Part shown: piece by piece, positions 58,489-64,000 of the stretch
Numbering within the stretch: position 1 is the first letter of the stretch
How the letters are laid out: each line of letters begins with the position of its first letter
From: Polytrichum commune
Taxonomy: Eukaryota > Streptophyta > Polytrichopsida > Polytrichales > Polytrichaceae
Direction of reading: 5' to 3'
Assembly (NCBI GenBank): GCA_950295325.1
Contig: OX485807.1
Location: 52,544,440-52,608,439, forward strand
DNA length: 64,000 nt
Program-made: the position numbers and the translations under genes
The notes under the pieces: generated by a model
The model's input: only the letters and a program-made list of their open reading frames with translations
Told to the model about the DNA's origin: nothing
Database searches by the model: none

Positions 58489-60312
58489 ATGGCCGTCGCA
58501 CCGGAGCATAGCTTCGTCGACAACAGAAGCATCGGGAGCTTCACACCCCTCACCAAGCAGGAGAAACATCGACATAGCAGAGAGGCTAGAGAAAAGAGCA
58601 CAAGCAAAAGCACCGACCCCGCCCACCCTCACAAGCAAGAAGAACAGAGCCAGCACGGGAATGCTAGAACGACACATCAATGGAAGACAGCAGGCACACC
58701 TGCCGCTGAAAAATACCCTCAACAAAAGCGGCGTGCACAAAGAAGACTCAGATCCACAACCAGGAGACAACAAGAAGATGGCAGCCTCAAACTTCGACTT
58801 GTAGCTTTATTACCAGTGTTGTATACACTATACAGCTTGAGCCAAGCAACGGCCGTGACAACCTACACCGCCAACCTCACTACCTCCGATACCTCATCCT
58901 CCTCCTCACCAGATCCACACCAACTTCCTCCCCCAGATCTACACCACCACCCCTCTCCAGATCCACTCACACTCCCTCCACCCTCAGATCTACTCCCACA
59001 CCTACATCTACCTAAACCATGTCAACACTCCACAAATCCTCCGGAGCGGCCATCAACTGCGCGCTCCTCCAGCCGCCCAACATGGGAAGAAGACCGCCAC
59101 GGACACTGCCCTTCTCCAACGCCGCAGCAAAGCTCCAGCAGACACAACAACGACCGAGTCAGCCCCATACATACACACAACAACAACAAGCAGTTAGAAG
59201 CCGCACCGCCAAATCAAAGGTACCGCCTAACCCTAAAGCTCCATCTTGCAAAACGTACCCACACACAGACCACTCCGCTACACCTTCATACAACATTCAC
59301 ACAATCACAACCCCCCCAACAATCCACACATAGCTGGACACTTCACACGCCAATCATACAATCGCAGCATACACAAAGCACAACACACAAAGGACACACG
59401 CAAAACAACACCAACAAAGACATACCTTACATCTGTCGCCTCCCCACCATCCTCCAACAAGGGCTCCGAAAAAGAAGTCACACACCTTACATTTGTCGCC
59501 TCCCGACCATCCTCCAACAAGGGCTCCGAAAAAGGAGTCATAAGCAGAGGGCTGCCCCCCGGAGCATGCACCACTCACCGACACCAACAGCCGACCGCCA
59601 CACAAATCCCACAACAAGCACTAAAACTCCACCAAAACACTACAGAACCTTCCCCCTCAAACACACAAAACCTCACAACTCAACCCCCCACTCACAAAAC
59701 CTCCCGCTGCAACCCAGAGCTCACACCAAACAAACACAGCCTTGGATGATCACATACACACGACAACTCCAAACAAAGCAAAACAAAAACCCTCCCAGCC
59801 CCGAAGGGGCACCCTCACCTGATCAGAGGCAGACGCCATGTCGCAGAAGACCACACCAACGCCACCTCAAAATGACGCCGCATCACCTCCCACAACCTCC
59901 CACAACTCACATTACAGCTCACACAAACTCAAAGTTAGCATCTGTCACAGACTGCACAATCACAAACACAAACAGCCAATGGCCAAACACAGCCGACCAC
60001 GGCCCACACACACCCACCCGCATTAGGCAAGGCAAACCACTACATAATCCACTCCCTTCCCCACCCAATAGCACTCACCATCCGTCACTCTCAAGCAAGC
60101 ACTTCGAACACAGCTCCCACCACCCTTACTCCTCTACTCTCTTCCCATCTGCCTCTCTCTCACACTCACCCCCCCAAGGTTACACACAGTCACACCCACA
60201 GGCTCCAGCGAACTCTCAAGAAATTAGCCGAACACAGCTCCCACCACCCCCATTTCTCAACTCTCCTCCCATCCACCTCTCTCACACACTCACCCCCCAA
60301 GGTTATACATAG
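58489..60312 (+). CDS. Low-complexity 607-codon ORF upstream of the LINE (doubtful)
   Basis: The frame is open from ATG 58489 (MAVAPEHSFVDNRS) to TAG 60312. The product is dominated by His, Pro, Thr, Gln and Ser. The plus strand here is very poor in T, so stop codons are rare by chance in all frames, and the length alone is weak evidence. Over 58489-58802 the +1-shifted frame reads more like protein (SRRNIDIAERLEKRAQAKAP, GMLERHINGRQQAHLPLKN, GDNKKMAASNFDL then stop) but lacks an ATG. The region may be the retroelement 5' UTR or an ORF0-like segment. Confidence 0.2.
   Translation: MAVAPEHSFVDNRSIGSFTPLTKQEKHRHSREAREKSTSKSTDPAHPHKQEEQSQHGNARTTHQWKTAGTPAAEKYPQQKRRAQRRLRSTTRRQQEDGSLKLRLVALLPVLYTLYSLSQATAVTTYTANLTTSDTSSSSSPDPHQLPPPDLHHHPSPDPLTLPPPSDLLPHLHLPKPCQHSTNPPERPSTARSSSRPTWEEDRHGHCPSPTPQQSSSRHNNDRVSPIHTHNNNKQLEAAPPNQRYRLTLKLHLAKRTHTQTTPLHLHTTFTQSQPPQQSTHSWTLHTPIIQSQHTQSTTHKGHTQNNTNKDIPYICRLPTILQQGLRKRSHTPYICRLPTILQQGLRKRSHKQRAAPRSMHHSPTPTADRHTNPTTSTKTPPKHYRTFPLKHTKPHNSTPHSQNLPLQPRAHTKQTQPWMITYTRQLQTKQNKNPPSPEGAPSPDQRQTPCRRRPHQRHLKMTPHHLPQPPTTHITAHTNSKLASVTDCTITNTNSQWPNTADHGPHTPTRIRQGKPLHNPLPSPPNSTHHPSLSSKHFEHSSHHPYSSTLFPSASLSHSPPQGYTQSHPQAPANSQEISRTQLPPPPFLNSPPIHLSHTLTPQGYT
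59425..59544 (+). repeat. 60-bp tandem duplication
   Basis: Units 59425-59484 and 59485-59544 differ at a few bases (CCTTACATCTGTCGCC and CCTTACATTTGTCGCC starts). Sixty bases is a multiple of three, so all frames stay open across it. Confidence 0.9.
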
Positions 60313-60325
60313 TCACACCCACTGG
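60105..60325 (+). repeat. ~124-bp tandem duplication in A/C-rich DNA
   Basis: The unit starting at 60105 (CGAACACAGCTCCCACCACC) recurs at 60229, with shared CACTCACCCCCCAAGGTTA and AGTCACACCCAC. The second copy is truncated near 60325. Confidence 0.8.
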
Positions 60326-61196
60326 CCACAACGATTTCTCACAAAATCAGGAGCCAGCACCGCCAACGAACATCGCAGCCAAGAAGCAACCAGCGCCGCG
60401 ACAGAGACATCAGTGTCCTCCCAGTGCACCGCATCCACCCACAACACCTCACGCACACACATCGAAGGAGCAGTAGGCAACCCCAGCTACAACACCATAC
60501 ACTACTCCCACAAAATCACAAAGGTAAACACAGACCCCCCCTACCAACCCCCCCACATTGCATGCAGCAGCAGGATTACTAACTCAATTGAGCCATGCAG
60601 AATAAGAAAGCATGAGAAATCGCCCACACATGCCAGGCCCACACAGCACGCCCAACACACACTAGTAGAAGCGCCGCCAGTCGATCGACGAAGCCCCCAC
60701 CAAACTGCGAACTTGACAGGACAGAAGACCCCACCTGAAGCACTGGGTACGCCGCTGCAGCCACAAACGATCCCTGCACCCAACACAACACACGTCAGCG
60801 ACACCACACCAAGTCCCATAGCGACACCACACCAAGTCCCAATCCCAGCAAGCACAACCACCCACCCCGAGAAAACAAGGTACGCACACAACCTGCACAC
60901 CACCATCCTATAACCATCCATTAAACAACAAATTCACCCCACAAAGTGGCCCTTGCAGATCACACACAACAGGCACAACAGACCGAAGAGGAGGCCCCAA
61001 CTGAACACGGGCACACGACAACCTCCACACAACGACCACACTCGGAATCAAGACACCCAACCCCCCGAGGCCACAAGGAGTACTCAACAGGCACATCCAC
61101 AACCAAGCCCAAAGAGCAACCGAGACGAACGACCTCCAACGGCACTTTATTCAAACAGGAGCCGACCCACTACCCAACACCCGACCTCCAAATAAC
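60326..61196. other. A/C-rich, T-poor leader of the LINE-like element
   Basis: Open frames occur in two of the three plus-strand frames (60413-60913, 60946-61368), again with Thr/Pro/His-rich products. The likely explanation is base composition. It directly precedes the ORF1 start at 61197 and is probably transcribed leader. Confidence 0.4.
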
Positions 61197-63054
61197 ATGG
61201 CCCAGCCCAACCAGCAACCGCCACACCAACTCAGCAGCCAATACATGGAGTTCCGACAGCAAATCCATGTCCAACCGCCAACCTCTCACACATCACCACC
61301 ATCACACCAGCAAAATCGCCCACATGTGCAAGCCGCCGAGGAGGACCTCGACATGGACGCCCAACTAGAAAATGTGTCACCTGAGCGAGGAGGAAGCTCC
61401 CTCCAAATATCATCCGAGAGAAACTCCATCCAAGTCGCACAATTGACACCACATAAATCCGCACACATTACCGAGAGCACGCCACCAACGCTACACTACC
61501 GTAACCCGCGACTCGAAGACGCCTCGGAGAGCCAAACCACCAAGAGAAGGAAAGCCGACGACTACACCGCGACATCCACACCCACAATACCAAGTAAGAC
61601 CATACCACCCTCACCATACACGAGATCTAAGCGAATCGCTACTCTAGGAATCGACATGATTGGCCAAATGTGGACATGATTCCAAATGCATGAGGCACTT
61701 TCCATACAAAGGGGCAAGAAGGAATTGAAGGAGAATCGTAGCAATGAAGAGTTCAACACCCTAGGAACACCCGTCAACGAAATCCATGAATTTCGAACGG
61801 TTCGGAGGGCATTCCCACGAACCAAACAAATTCTCTATCCTACGGAGCGCCCGGATGCGGTCCCCGGACAACACCTACATTTCACACAAATCCCCATGTA
61901 TGAGAAGATCTCTCTAGACACGGGTCTCACCGAGGGATTCCATGTTACCATACGATTTGACGGAGAATACAAGAGACTTAGCCGAAAGGAGGTCAAAGCC
62001 GCATGCATGGAGCGACTACGACACACGAATATACCGCAACAACACGGCCGTCGACATACTTAGGACACTCATGAGGGAATCTTACTACGACGGCCGAGAG
62101 GTAGAAATCTTGTCACTCACCAAGTCGGAGGTAGAGAAAGACTTCGCTTTCATCACCCTCACCACCGAAGAATCTAGAGATGACATCCTCAACAACGGCC
62201 TCATCTACCACTCCGAACGCCTTAGAGTGAGCATCACCAAGGATAAAGACATGGGCAACATCTCGGAGCTCCGAATTAGCACCACGCTAGTAGCCAACAA
62301 CTTACCACAAAGGGAAGCTCAATCGACCATCACAAAGACCCTCAAGAGGCTATTCGGAGAGGACAACATCACCGGCATCACTTTCGGTCACCAATCCATT
62401 CACGGAGAAGATCGGCACGCCGGATGGTGCCACATCCAATGCCTTAATGCGGCGGTTTACACGGAGTGGCTAAGGAAATCGATGTACATCCTAGGAAGGC
62501 AGGTGGACTTCATCCCACACAAGGGGAGCATAGACGGCACCGAACCTAACCAAACGGCCATATGCCTCGCACACGCCCCCGTTCGTGAAGTCATAGCTCA
62601 AAAAGCCCAAGCTATGAGCAACACCGCCGCATCCTCACCCCTCATGTCGGAGAAGTTCTTCACCAAAACCATCAAGGAACTAGTCGAGACGGTGGATGGC
62701 AAGCTCACCACACTAGCCAACAACATCAACCTCAACACGGATAAGCAAATCGAAGCATCCACGGATACACTCAAGGCACATGCAACTAACATGCATAGCA
62801 TCATGAGCGCCATGGCGATGGAATTTCAACAATCCAACAACCGTATCCACAACATCATGCAAACATTGGCCGCCACCTCACCGGAACCTCCCCACCCCAA
62901 CATCGCAAGACTCCCGCAAGCACCAAGTACTTCCATGGCAAACACATATGCGGGAGACATCAACACATATCTCGCACCACCAGGGTTTACCGGCATACAC
63001 CTCCGAAGCCCCTCATCAAGCCTCCACAAAGATCAACAACATCCCAATGAATAG
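61197..63054 (+). pseudogene. LINE ORF1 (gag-like, two RRM-like modules), interrupted
   Basis: ORF1 proteins of LINEs bind their own RNA. The frame starts at ATG 61197 (MAQPNQQPPHQLSSQYMEF), with a Gln/Pro-rich N-terminus and a possible nuclear localisation KRRKAD. It reads through an in-frame TGA at 61677-61679, then continues (LSIQRGKKELKENRSNEEF). At about 62010-62030 the protein-like sequence moves to the +1 frame, after GFHVTIRFDGEYKRL...ACMERLR and into RIYRNNTAVDILRTLM. It stays open to TAG 63054. RRM-like folds are suggested by EVEILSLTKS...DFAFITLTTEES...ERLRVSI and STTLVANNLPQREAQ...AGWCHIQCLNAA. A coiled or helical tail follows. The TGA and shift are probably mutations; recoding is possible but unproven. 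Confidence 0.6.
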
Positions 63055-64000
63055 AAAGTTCCTAGCATGCCTATTGAAGTGTCTCATCCGTATAAATTGT
63101 ATTTCCCATTTTCTTATAAATAAAGAGTTATACATTACCACCACCACAATACTCCTAGCAAAGATCCGTAACACAACAAATACAAACATAACCAAAAAGC
63201 ACACTTATCCAATAGCATTCACATGGTCGATGATTACATACAACATTTATCTCCTATTATATATATATATTAATAAAAAGTGTACACGCACCAAGATATT
63301 CACTACTACTCTCATCTATGCCCTTATCGTCTCAATAATATGGGTCCACTTACACACATGGACGATACTCACATACATACTTTGTATTACCTACTTTTTT
63401 ATTATAAATAAAAAGCATGCACTCTCATTCCTCAAAATCCGTACATTGGCCTCACTCGCCAACATCATTAGACTAAATCAAATAATAAAAAAATATTACC
63501 AAGCTACCACAAAGGACCAAACCACCCTCATGAGTAGCAAACCAATAGTATATACATGGACGATACTTTCACATATCATATGTATTTTTCTACTTATAAA
63601 TAAAAAGGGCATAAACACCCAAAAGTTTTCCACCATACTTGCCATTACATGTAATATACCAATAGCATATGGCCATTTCACACCACACCCCACACTAAAT
63701 ACAACAACACTCTTACACAACACAAAATACTCACACCACAAAGCCCCCACCACCTCTCCATACAACATCCCCAATAACATGCACAACACACTAAACAACA
63801 TCGCAACCACATTACTAAAACAATTCAACTCTCTAATCCCACCCATCAATACCATAACATACATAGGTAAATTTCAACACATAACACACATGCATCTTAA
63901 AAACCCCAAAGTTAAACTCCTCCAATACTACACATGGAATAATTCTATAATCATCCTCCTAGGAGGGGATATCCAAACAAACCCGGGACCTCAAACAAAC
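63047..64000 (+). CDS. LINE ORF2, N-terminal part: hydrophobic leader plus 2A-like motif (runs off window)
   Basis: The frame is open for all 318 codons from ATG 63047 to the window end. The start overlaps the ORF1 stop in ATGAATAG. The leader (about 1-300) has hydrophobic stretches near residues 5-25, 58-76, 85-105, 106-121 and 166-185. Three of these belong to a repeated module: TWSMITYNIYLLLYIYINKK, TWTILTYILCITYFFIINKK and TWTILSHIICIFLLINKK. Then NNSIIILLGGDIQTNPGP (to residue 315) forms a 2A-like motif. In animal and protist non-LTR elements 2A sequences sit before the endonuclease/reverse transcriptase, so those domains are expected beyond 64000 but are not seen. It is probably translated by coupling to ORF1. 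Alternative: a non-LINE retroelement polyprotein. Confidence 0.6.
   Translation, partial: MNRKFLACLLKCLIRINCISHFLINKELYITTTTILLAKIRNTTNTNITKKHTYPIAFTWSMITYNIYLLLYIYINKKCTRTKIFTTTLIYALIVSIIWVHLHTWTILTYILCITYFFIINKKHALSFLKIRTLASLANIIRLNQIIKKYYQATTKDQTTLMSSKPIVYTWTILSHIICIFLLINKKGINTQKFSTILAITCNIPIAYGHFTPHPTLNTTTLLHNTKYSHHKAPTTSPYNIPNNMHNTLNNIATTLLKQFNSLIPPINTITYIGKFQHITHMHLKNPKVKLLQYYTWNNSIIILLGGDIQTNPGPQTN
63962..63991 (+). other. 2A-like ribosome-skipping motif
   Basis: The codons give GGDIQTNPGP preceded by the hydrophobic IIILL. The 2A consensus is D-(V/I)-E-x-N-P-G-P; here Glu is replaced by Gln. Skipping would occur between Gly314 and Pro315 of ORF2, separating the hydrophobic leader from the downstream enzyme. 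Activity of the Gln form is not certain. Confidence 0.65.

Follow-up and report, generated by a model that had tools for sequence, protein, structure and literature searches.

Tandem 2A-like motifs before the endonuclease of a large non-L1 LINE in the moss Polytrichum commune, and their possible growth through 5′ chimeras

Introduction

Among the closest described systems are the 2A-bearing non-long-terminal-repeat (non-LTR) retrotransposons with an apurinic/apyrimidinic endonuclease (APE), which Odon et al. in 2013 reportedly placed in the clades Rex1, Crack, L2, L2A, CR1 and Ingi/L1Tc. The present work concerned a 64,000-nucleotide (nt) stretch of the moss Polytrichum commune (assembly GCA_950295325.1, contig OX485807.1, positions 52,544,440 to 52,608,439), called the window hereafter, and an element that enters it near its end. 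Taking the whole reading together, including the splitting of the product by 2A and the growth of the 5′ end by chimeras, it is probable that positions 63047-64000 are the 5′ part of open reading frame 2 (ORF2) of a large (~12.9 kb) APE-type, non-L1 long interspersed nuclear element (LINE) in this green plant. An earlier note on the window had proposed a plant LINE-like ORF2 whose 2A-like motif precedes an APE endonuclease (EN) and a reverse transcriptase (RT), and this identification, in a green plant nuclear genome, was supported.

Plant LINEs were assigned only to the L1 and RTE superfamilies in the available part of a 2022 review (PMC9033089). In a 2026 study of StopGo (2A) sequences, natural use by plant viruses was described as being without evidence and use in cellular genes as rare (PMC12846837). 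No description of a plant LINE with a 2A was found among the titles and abstract openings listed by our literature search, which did not cover Odon 2013 and Rao 2025, and priority is not settled.

Results

The searched genome comprised 408 Mb in 64 contigs, of which seven (C1-C7) measured 42-78 Mb each, and the window was located on the chromosome-sized contig C5. A 146.6 kb contig bore rbcL, which aligned with Rubisco large subunits of the PDB over residues 8-482 of its 482, and a neighbouring frame was identified by eye as accD, all of which points to a green plant; the compact accD and the seven chromosomes would suit a moss. The copy in the window is written W below, its closest full copies are named after their contigs (C1 and C2 copies), and the remaining loci carry L numbers; all coordinates inside the window refer to the + strand. 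The unbroken frame described in the earlier note was found again, open from the ATG at 63047 through the last position of the window and into the flank, and it reached 842 residues in L005. Its first 315 residues (63047-63991) formed a leader that closes with 2A motif no. 1, GDIQTNPGP (63965-63991), where the skip is predicted between G (63986-63988) and P (63989-63991). A single 2A before EN-RT had been proposed; the motif itself was verified, but two or more motifs were present in 18 of 22 copies, and in the window copy a second one, GDIHPNPGP, lay past the window edge at C5:52608782-52608808, 126 residues after the first.

The pattern GD[IV]xxNPGP, in which positions 14 and 15 were left free, gave 432 matches genome-wide (233 on the + strand, 199 on the − strand) compared with 0 for the reversed pattern, and thus the 2A motif was not a product of chance; NPGPMP-type sites numbered 269 vs 0 for a control pattern. 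The 94 sites listed on C1 represented 80 loci, 10 with two and 2 with three sites, neighbouring sites lying no more than 1.5 kb apart. A motif-blind query of 401 residues downstream of the last 2A was also adopted, for which 103 matches were scored among 1,224 candidates, and the best 22 of these 103 were read as copies. A recognisable 2A stood at the junction in 22/22 of them, with NPGP intact in 17, so the expectation that the motif is kept in other genomic copies held. When motifs with at least 6 of the 7 fixed residues were counted, two were found in 13 of the best 22 copies, three in five and one in four, and L033 carried four in one frame. Among the 24 C1 rows of this search, 20 started at query residue 1 or 2, and exact NPGP was seen by eye directly upstream in 17 of these. 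YYTWNNS-type modules were sought without NPGP, five ids being skipped as duplicates under another name, and 28 of the 34 modules ended in intact D[IV]xxNPGP. Stretches with three or four motifs were observed at C1:762073-762887, at C1:66446877-66447859 and in L033, and the upstream modules fell into two or more types (YYTWNNS... and IVDLQTLIL...), apparently swapped between elements.

The 2A cores were strongly constrained, and the leader weakly. Pooled over the fixed core codons, the ratio of nonsynonymous to synonymous substitution rates (dN/dS) was 0.025 over 20 last sites, from which the C1 and C2 copies were excluded, and 0.042 over 23 upstream sites. An upstream site was accepted when it retained no fewer than 5 of the 7 fixed residues and was immediately preceded by two neighbouring L/I/V/F residues. 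Exact NPGP was retained in 16 of the 20 last sites and in 20 of the 23 upstream ones, with D lost in two of those 20. In a set of seven loci (W, L024, L025 and L031, in which the site is followed by another one, and L028-L030, in which it was the only one seen), dN/dS was 0.67 in the hydrophobic hairpin, 0.88 in the spacer, 0.24 in the 37 residues before the core and 0.05 in the core. In pairs among W, C1 and C2, it was 0.12-0.29 for the tract between the two 2A sites, 0.21-0.51 for the EN-side part and 1.01-1.35 for the leader, values obtained from small numbers of changes (for the leader of W vs C1, 26 nonsynonymous and 8 synonymous) and possibly touched by drift after insertion. Strong constraint was thus found for the motif (core dN/dS 0.025-0.042) and not for the leader (0.67-1.35).

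The origin of the additional sites was approached through 30 inter-2A tracts taken from the 22 best copies and L031-L034. EN-side N-termini were matched at an expectation value (E) of at most 1e-3 by 21 of the 30 tracts, compared with 3 among 600 shuffled ones. Over 162 nt, the DNA of the first half of the window tract was 70% identical (E 1.5e-16) to the sequence of L027 just after the one 2A seen there. In L034 the reverse order was found, with a window-type EN-side start, then a 2A and then a sister-type EN-side part. Since 21 of 30 tracts match EN-side ends, 2A sites seem to stack through 5′ chimeras.

The two motifs of the window copy departed from the canonical core (D/G/C/N)(V/I)ExNPGP solely at position 14. 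Judged by eye, motif 1 was preceded by IIILLGGD, with GG where the rule asks for (A/S/C)G, and motif 2 by LLILQCGD, whose CG fits. In the 94 C1 sites, position 14 was E in 54, Q in 20, H in 14, K in 4, R in 1 and Y in 1, position 15 was P in 35, T in 27, S in 15, L in 13 and another residue in 4, and the core was fully canonical in 54. According to PMC12846837, E14 is canonical, a natural H14 site was more than 95% active, E14Q mutants reached 26% or 56%, and position 15 shows a preference for P, S, T, L and others. Based on these activities for Q14 and H14, motif 1 of the window copy is predicted to be leaky and motif 2 efficient.

The three imperfect TW..INKK modules noticed earlier in the leader were real at the DNA level, where a repeat search returned them as families D1 and D2 (63216-63619), with 38-nt repeats at 63216, 63351 and 63549 and 25-nt repeats at 63268, 63403 and 63595. 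Hydropathy was scored in 19-residue windows with a Kyte-Doolittle mean threshold of 1.6 and compared with 500 residue shuffles of the same leader. Three stretches of W passed, namely LACLLKCLIRINCISHFLI (63062-63118, mean 1.75), IFTTTLIYALIVSIIWVHL (63296-63352, mean 2.03) and PIVYTWTILSHIICIFLLI (63542-63598, mean 2.04); shuffles reached as many in 8.6% of trials, and the hydrophobic stretches of this copy are therefore largely due to composition. Three windows also passed in each of the C1 and C2 leaders (shuffle P 0.086-0.094 over W, C1 and C2). L028 had two (P 0.016), in a stretch read in the ORF1-fused frame which stops before the 2A, L025 had one (peak P 0.044), L033 had one, and the one in L035 was the 2A context itself; no window exceeded the threshold in the leaders of L029, L031, L036 and L060. 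The idea of a selected membrane leader was thus not sustained, with dN/dS of about 0.7-1.35 a clustering in W, C1 and C2 not clearly above composition, and the 2A kept by the related L036 and L060 with other, non-hydrophobic leaders. Membrane targeting by the leader, judged from its hydropathy, is conjectural. In the sister group (L035, L036, L037 and L060), each locus carried one intact canonical GDIE[TPL]NPGP, upstream of which the repeats RARPTGLAQ, MASAYRPRH and HPKHKPHP replaced the hydrophobic modules, and L035 had an additional degenerate second motif.

Downstream of the last 2A, the APE endonuclease of the window copy scored 23.5 bits with Exo_endo_phos in the whole frame, just below the cut-off of 24.5, and 25.7 bits (E 1.1e-5), over that cut-off, when the EN-side part was scanned alone. 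EN and RT had been expected downstream in the same frame. This was found in L060, where one 2,406-residue frame, open to the end of the piece, held 2A, EN, RT and a PCIF1-like domain, with the APE endonuclease N-terminal to the RT; it did not hold in the window copy, where the EN frame ended in a stop and the RT (RVT_1, E 1.4e-16) lay in a different frame. The PCIF1-like domain followed the RT (L060:8500-9999, PCIF1_WW match E 2.3e-12; L009:5415-8627 for the C1 copy) and preceded the RNase H (E 4.7e-15) in the C1 copy, which further held a CPIC-type zinc-like motif seen by eye. PCIF1 belongs to a cap adenosine methyltransferase family, and because its ANPPF motif was replaced by AHPPN in L060 and AHPHT in the C2 copy, activity of this domain is doubtful; no relevant title on PCIF1 with retroelements appeared among the literature matches listed. 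The RT was compared by bit score with labelled R2 and L1 sequences, alongside an in-genome L1 control. The L060 RT scored 120 bits with R2 and 74 with L1, the C1-copy RT 98 and 61, and the control L063, found via zf-RVT in the same genome, 75 and 170. By this RT score the element is not a plant L1 and lies outside L1. No zf-RVT match was found in the element pieces scanned, and a scan of viral contigs with the L060 RT gave 21 pattern matches, none of which was confirmed as a relative. RTE elements do not typically have RNase H or a separate ORF1, both of which were found here.

ORF1 of the window copy was read in three pieces: 61005-61679, in the frame of the longer C1-copy ORF1 and closed by an in-frame stop; 61680-62063, interrupted near 62034, where ~244 nt of the C1 copy are missing; and 61918-63054, whose TAG stop (63052-63054) overlaps the ORF2 ATG (63047) as ATGAATAG. 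ORF1 ended with ATGAATAG in 6 of 19 loci examined (the window copy, L024, L026, L029, L030 and L031). The same ATGAATAG was present in C1, C2 and L025, but the ORF1 frame there was shifted or stopped earlier; the junction of L033 was ATGGTTAG, and no ORF1 end was found in the five loci L004, L027, L034, L035 and L037. Fusion of ORF1 to ORF2 as the ancestral state, suggested by the C1 copy, was dropped because of the ATGAATAG overlap in other copies, which makes separate ORFs the likelier ancestral state in the window subfamily. In the module adjoining motif 1, frame 2 read NHPHE-stop, the same as the ORF1 end of L024 and L026, which suggests a remnant of a former junction between the end of ORF1 and the start of ORF2; the long leader of the window copy may accordingly have grown by duplication of the ORF1/ORF2 junction.

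By blastn of the window and its flank against the C1 and C2 copies, the LINE part inside the window was 59216-64000. Homology with the C1 copy started at window 59216 and stopped 13,282 nt past window 56000, and the LINE ran past 64000 to about C5:52613721, where likeness to other copies ended. About 12.9 kb was common to the C1 and C2 copies, with an insertion of ~1 kb in the latter. The window copy carried the ORF1 in-frame stop, the deletion of ~244 nt near 62034, and stops and frameshifts from the endonuclease onward, and its 3′ end was lost. The first 1.8 kb of the element (59216-61000) was a P/T/H-rich frame with internal repeats, in which TPYICRLPTILQQGLRKRSH occurred twice, and upstream of 59216 the window and C1 copies differed in sequence. 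The shared 3′ end of the C1 and C2 copies (C1 ~31451509) read ...ACACTTTATTCAC, without poly-A. Directly downstream of the truncated LINE stood a Gypsy-like gag frame with a CCHC knuckle recognised by eye (L005:7437-9998).

Discussion

The arrangement described above can be put together as follows. Translation of ORF2 would begin, presumably by reinitiation, at the AUG overlapping the ORF1 stop, and one to four 2A (StopGo) sites would then split the nascent chain, releasing the variable leader and the inter-2A tracts, while the EN-RT-PCIF1-like-RNase H protein would have a new start from the proline that closes the last NPGP. New upstream sites would come from 5′ ends of sister elements joined before an intact EN-RT body, for example through template switching, and every head added in this manner would be removed by its own 2A. 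We suggest that the 2A may serve as an insulator, by which the 5′ end can change without altering the enzyme. In its widest form, that a land-plant non-L1 LINE lineage uses tandem StopGo arrays as insulators, with each 5′ chimera adding a site and a discarded head, the enzyme start remaining constant and the strengths of the sites tuning the ratio of fused to free product, the proposal is put forward tentatively, as quite possible rather than established. Tolerance of 5′ exchange could be a reason why mobile elements keep 2A, and more than 400 StopGo-like sites in one plant genome, strongly conserved where measured, would provide a wealth of natural variants with which the roles of position 14 and of the upstream motifs could be tested.

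Several observations weigh against this account. Ribosome skipping at these motifs, and with it the entire translational side, is deduced from the letters. Position 14 was non-canonical in 40 of the 94 C1 sites, and the window copy itself has Q in motif 1 and H in motif 2 where E is canonical. Among the best 22 copies, five had one residue of NPGP changed (NPGS, NLGP, NPRP twice, NQGP), and the exact motif was lacking in 3 of the 20 C1 rows; these 22 are moreover the closest of the 103, and both copies and tracts are akin, so the counts are not independent. The rule by which upstream motifs were selected favours conservation. Nine of the 30 tracts did not reach E 1e-3, among them three with values of 0.004-0.007, and the sister loci L028-L030 matched the window tract at the protein level only (composition-adjusted E 0.001-0.008). 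The ORF1 frame read through into ORF2 in the C1 copy, L028 and L032, and L036 and L060 of the sister group lacked the ATGAATAG overlap, so that the ORF1/ORF2 boundary varies. The window copy is dead, and neither a 3′ tail nor a target-site duplication was recognised by eye at the ends of the C1 and C2 copies.

The same tandem motifs could be explained if only the last 2A works and the upstream ones are relics of former 5′ ends that chimera formation left behind, which would agree with the resemblance of most inter-2A tracts to truncated EN-side ends and with damaged upstream motifs such as GAIHTNPGP (in two copies), GDIELNLGP, GDIHTNPDP and GDIEPHLGP. However, upstream cores were constrained about as strongly as last ones (dN/dS 0.042 vs 0.025; exact NPGP in 20/23 vs 16/20, two of the 20 upstream without D), and we consider this explanation rather unlikely. 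Less likely again is split targeting, in which a membrane-inserted leader and partial skipping would yield membrane-bound as well as free EN-RT, in the manner of sea-urchin 2A signal sequences. The hydropathy threshold was passed by the leaders of W, C1 and C2 (three windows each), L028 (two) and L025 and L033 (one each), the L028 count and the L025 peak exceeded residue shuffles (P 0.016 and 0.044), motif 1, with its Q14, would be expected to skip leakily (PMC12846837), and a 2A doubling as a signal sequence functions in plant cells as reported in PMC4981915. What makes it improbable is the leader itself, whose dN/dS was 1.01-1.35 in close copies (hairpin 0.67 vs core 0.05 in the seven loci), whose transmembrane-like windows in W, C1 and C2 were not clearly over shuffles (P 0.086-0.094), and which had no such windows in L029, L031, L036 and L060.

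The motif might also be conserved for a role in the protein itself, for example as a turn or protease site, and not as a skipping signal; this is compatible with skipping being here a prediction from sequence. Against it, the free positions obeyed the StopGo preferences, with position 14 mostly E/Q/H and position 15 mostly P/T/S/L, and the L-rich upstream stretches with G before D resembled the L-rich motifs 2/6 (both as given in PMC12846837), which leaves a protein feature very unlikely. Next to no credence is given to a base-composition artefact of G-poor coding strands: the leader is, by eye, rich in I, T, N and H, as G-poor DNA would give, but the reversed pattern of equal base make-up had 0 matches and synonymous codons vary freely, and in our view the reversed-pattern controls have already refuted it.

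The preferred account, that of tandem 2A sites which would insulate a constant enzyme from a changing 5′ end, can be set beside known systems. The 2A signal sequences of sea-urchin NLR proteins (PMC4981915) likewise have a hydrophobic N-terminal stretch ending in 2A; there the 2A itself is the N-terminal signal, whereas in the moss LINE it is preceded by a weakly constrained 315-residue leader with a conjectural targeting role. Picornaviruses of the Paavivirinae, as described in PMC11512398, similarly have several 2A per polyprotein, ~50-150 residues apart and varying in number among relatives, but their inter-2A tracts had no significant database matches beyond related viruses, whereas those of the moss LINE, a retrotransposon, mostly resemble truncated EN-side ends. 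Plant L1 LINEs of the zf-RVT type, such as L063, share an APE endonuclease (seen by eye in L063) and an RT with the moss element; the RT of L063 was nearer to L1 than to R2, and that of the moss 2A element the reverse, and among 27 zf-RVT matches listed on C1, only one lay within 10 kb of a 2A motif. The 2A-bearing non-LTR elements of Odon et al. 2013 reportedly have in common with it an RT and an APE endonuclease preceded by a 2A-like motif. The moss element differs from them in its plant host, its one to four 2A sites, its PCIF1-like domain, its separate ORF1 with a stop/start overlap in several copies, and the H or Q14 in most sites of the window subfamily.

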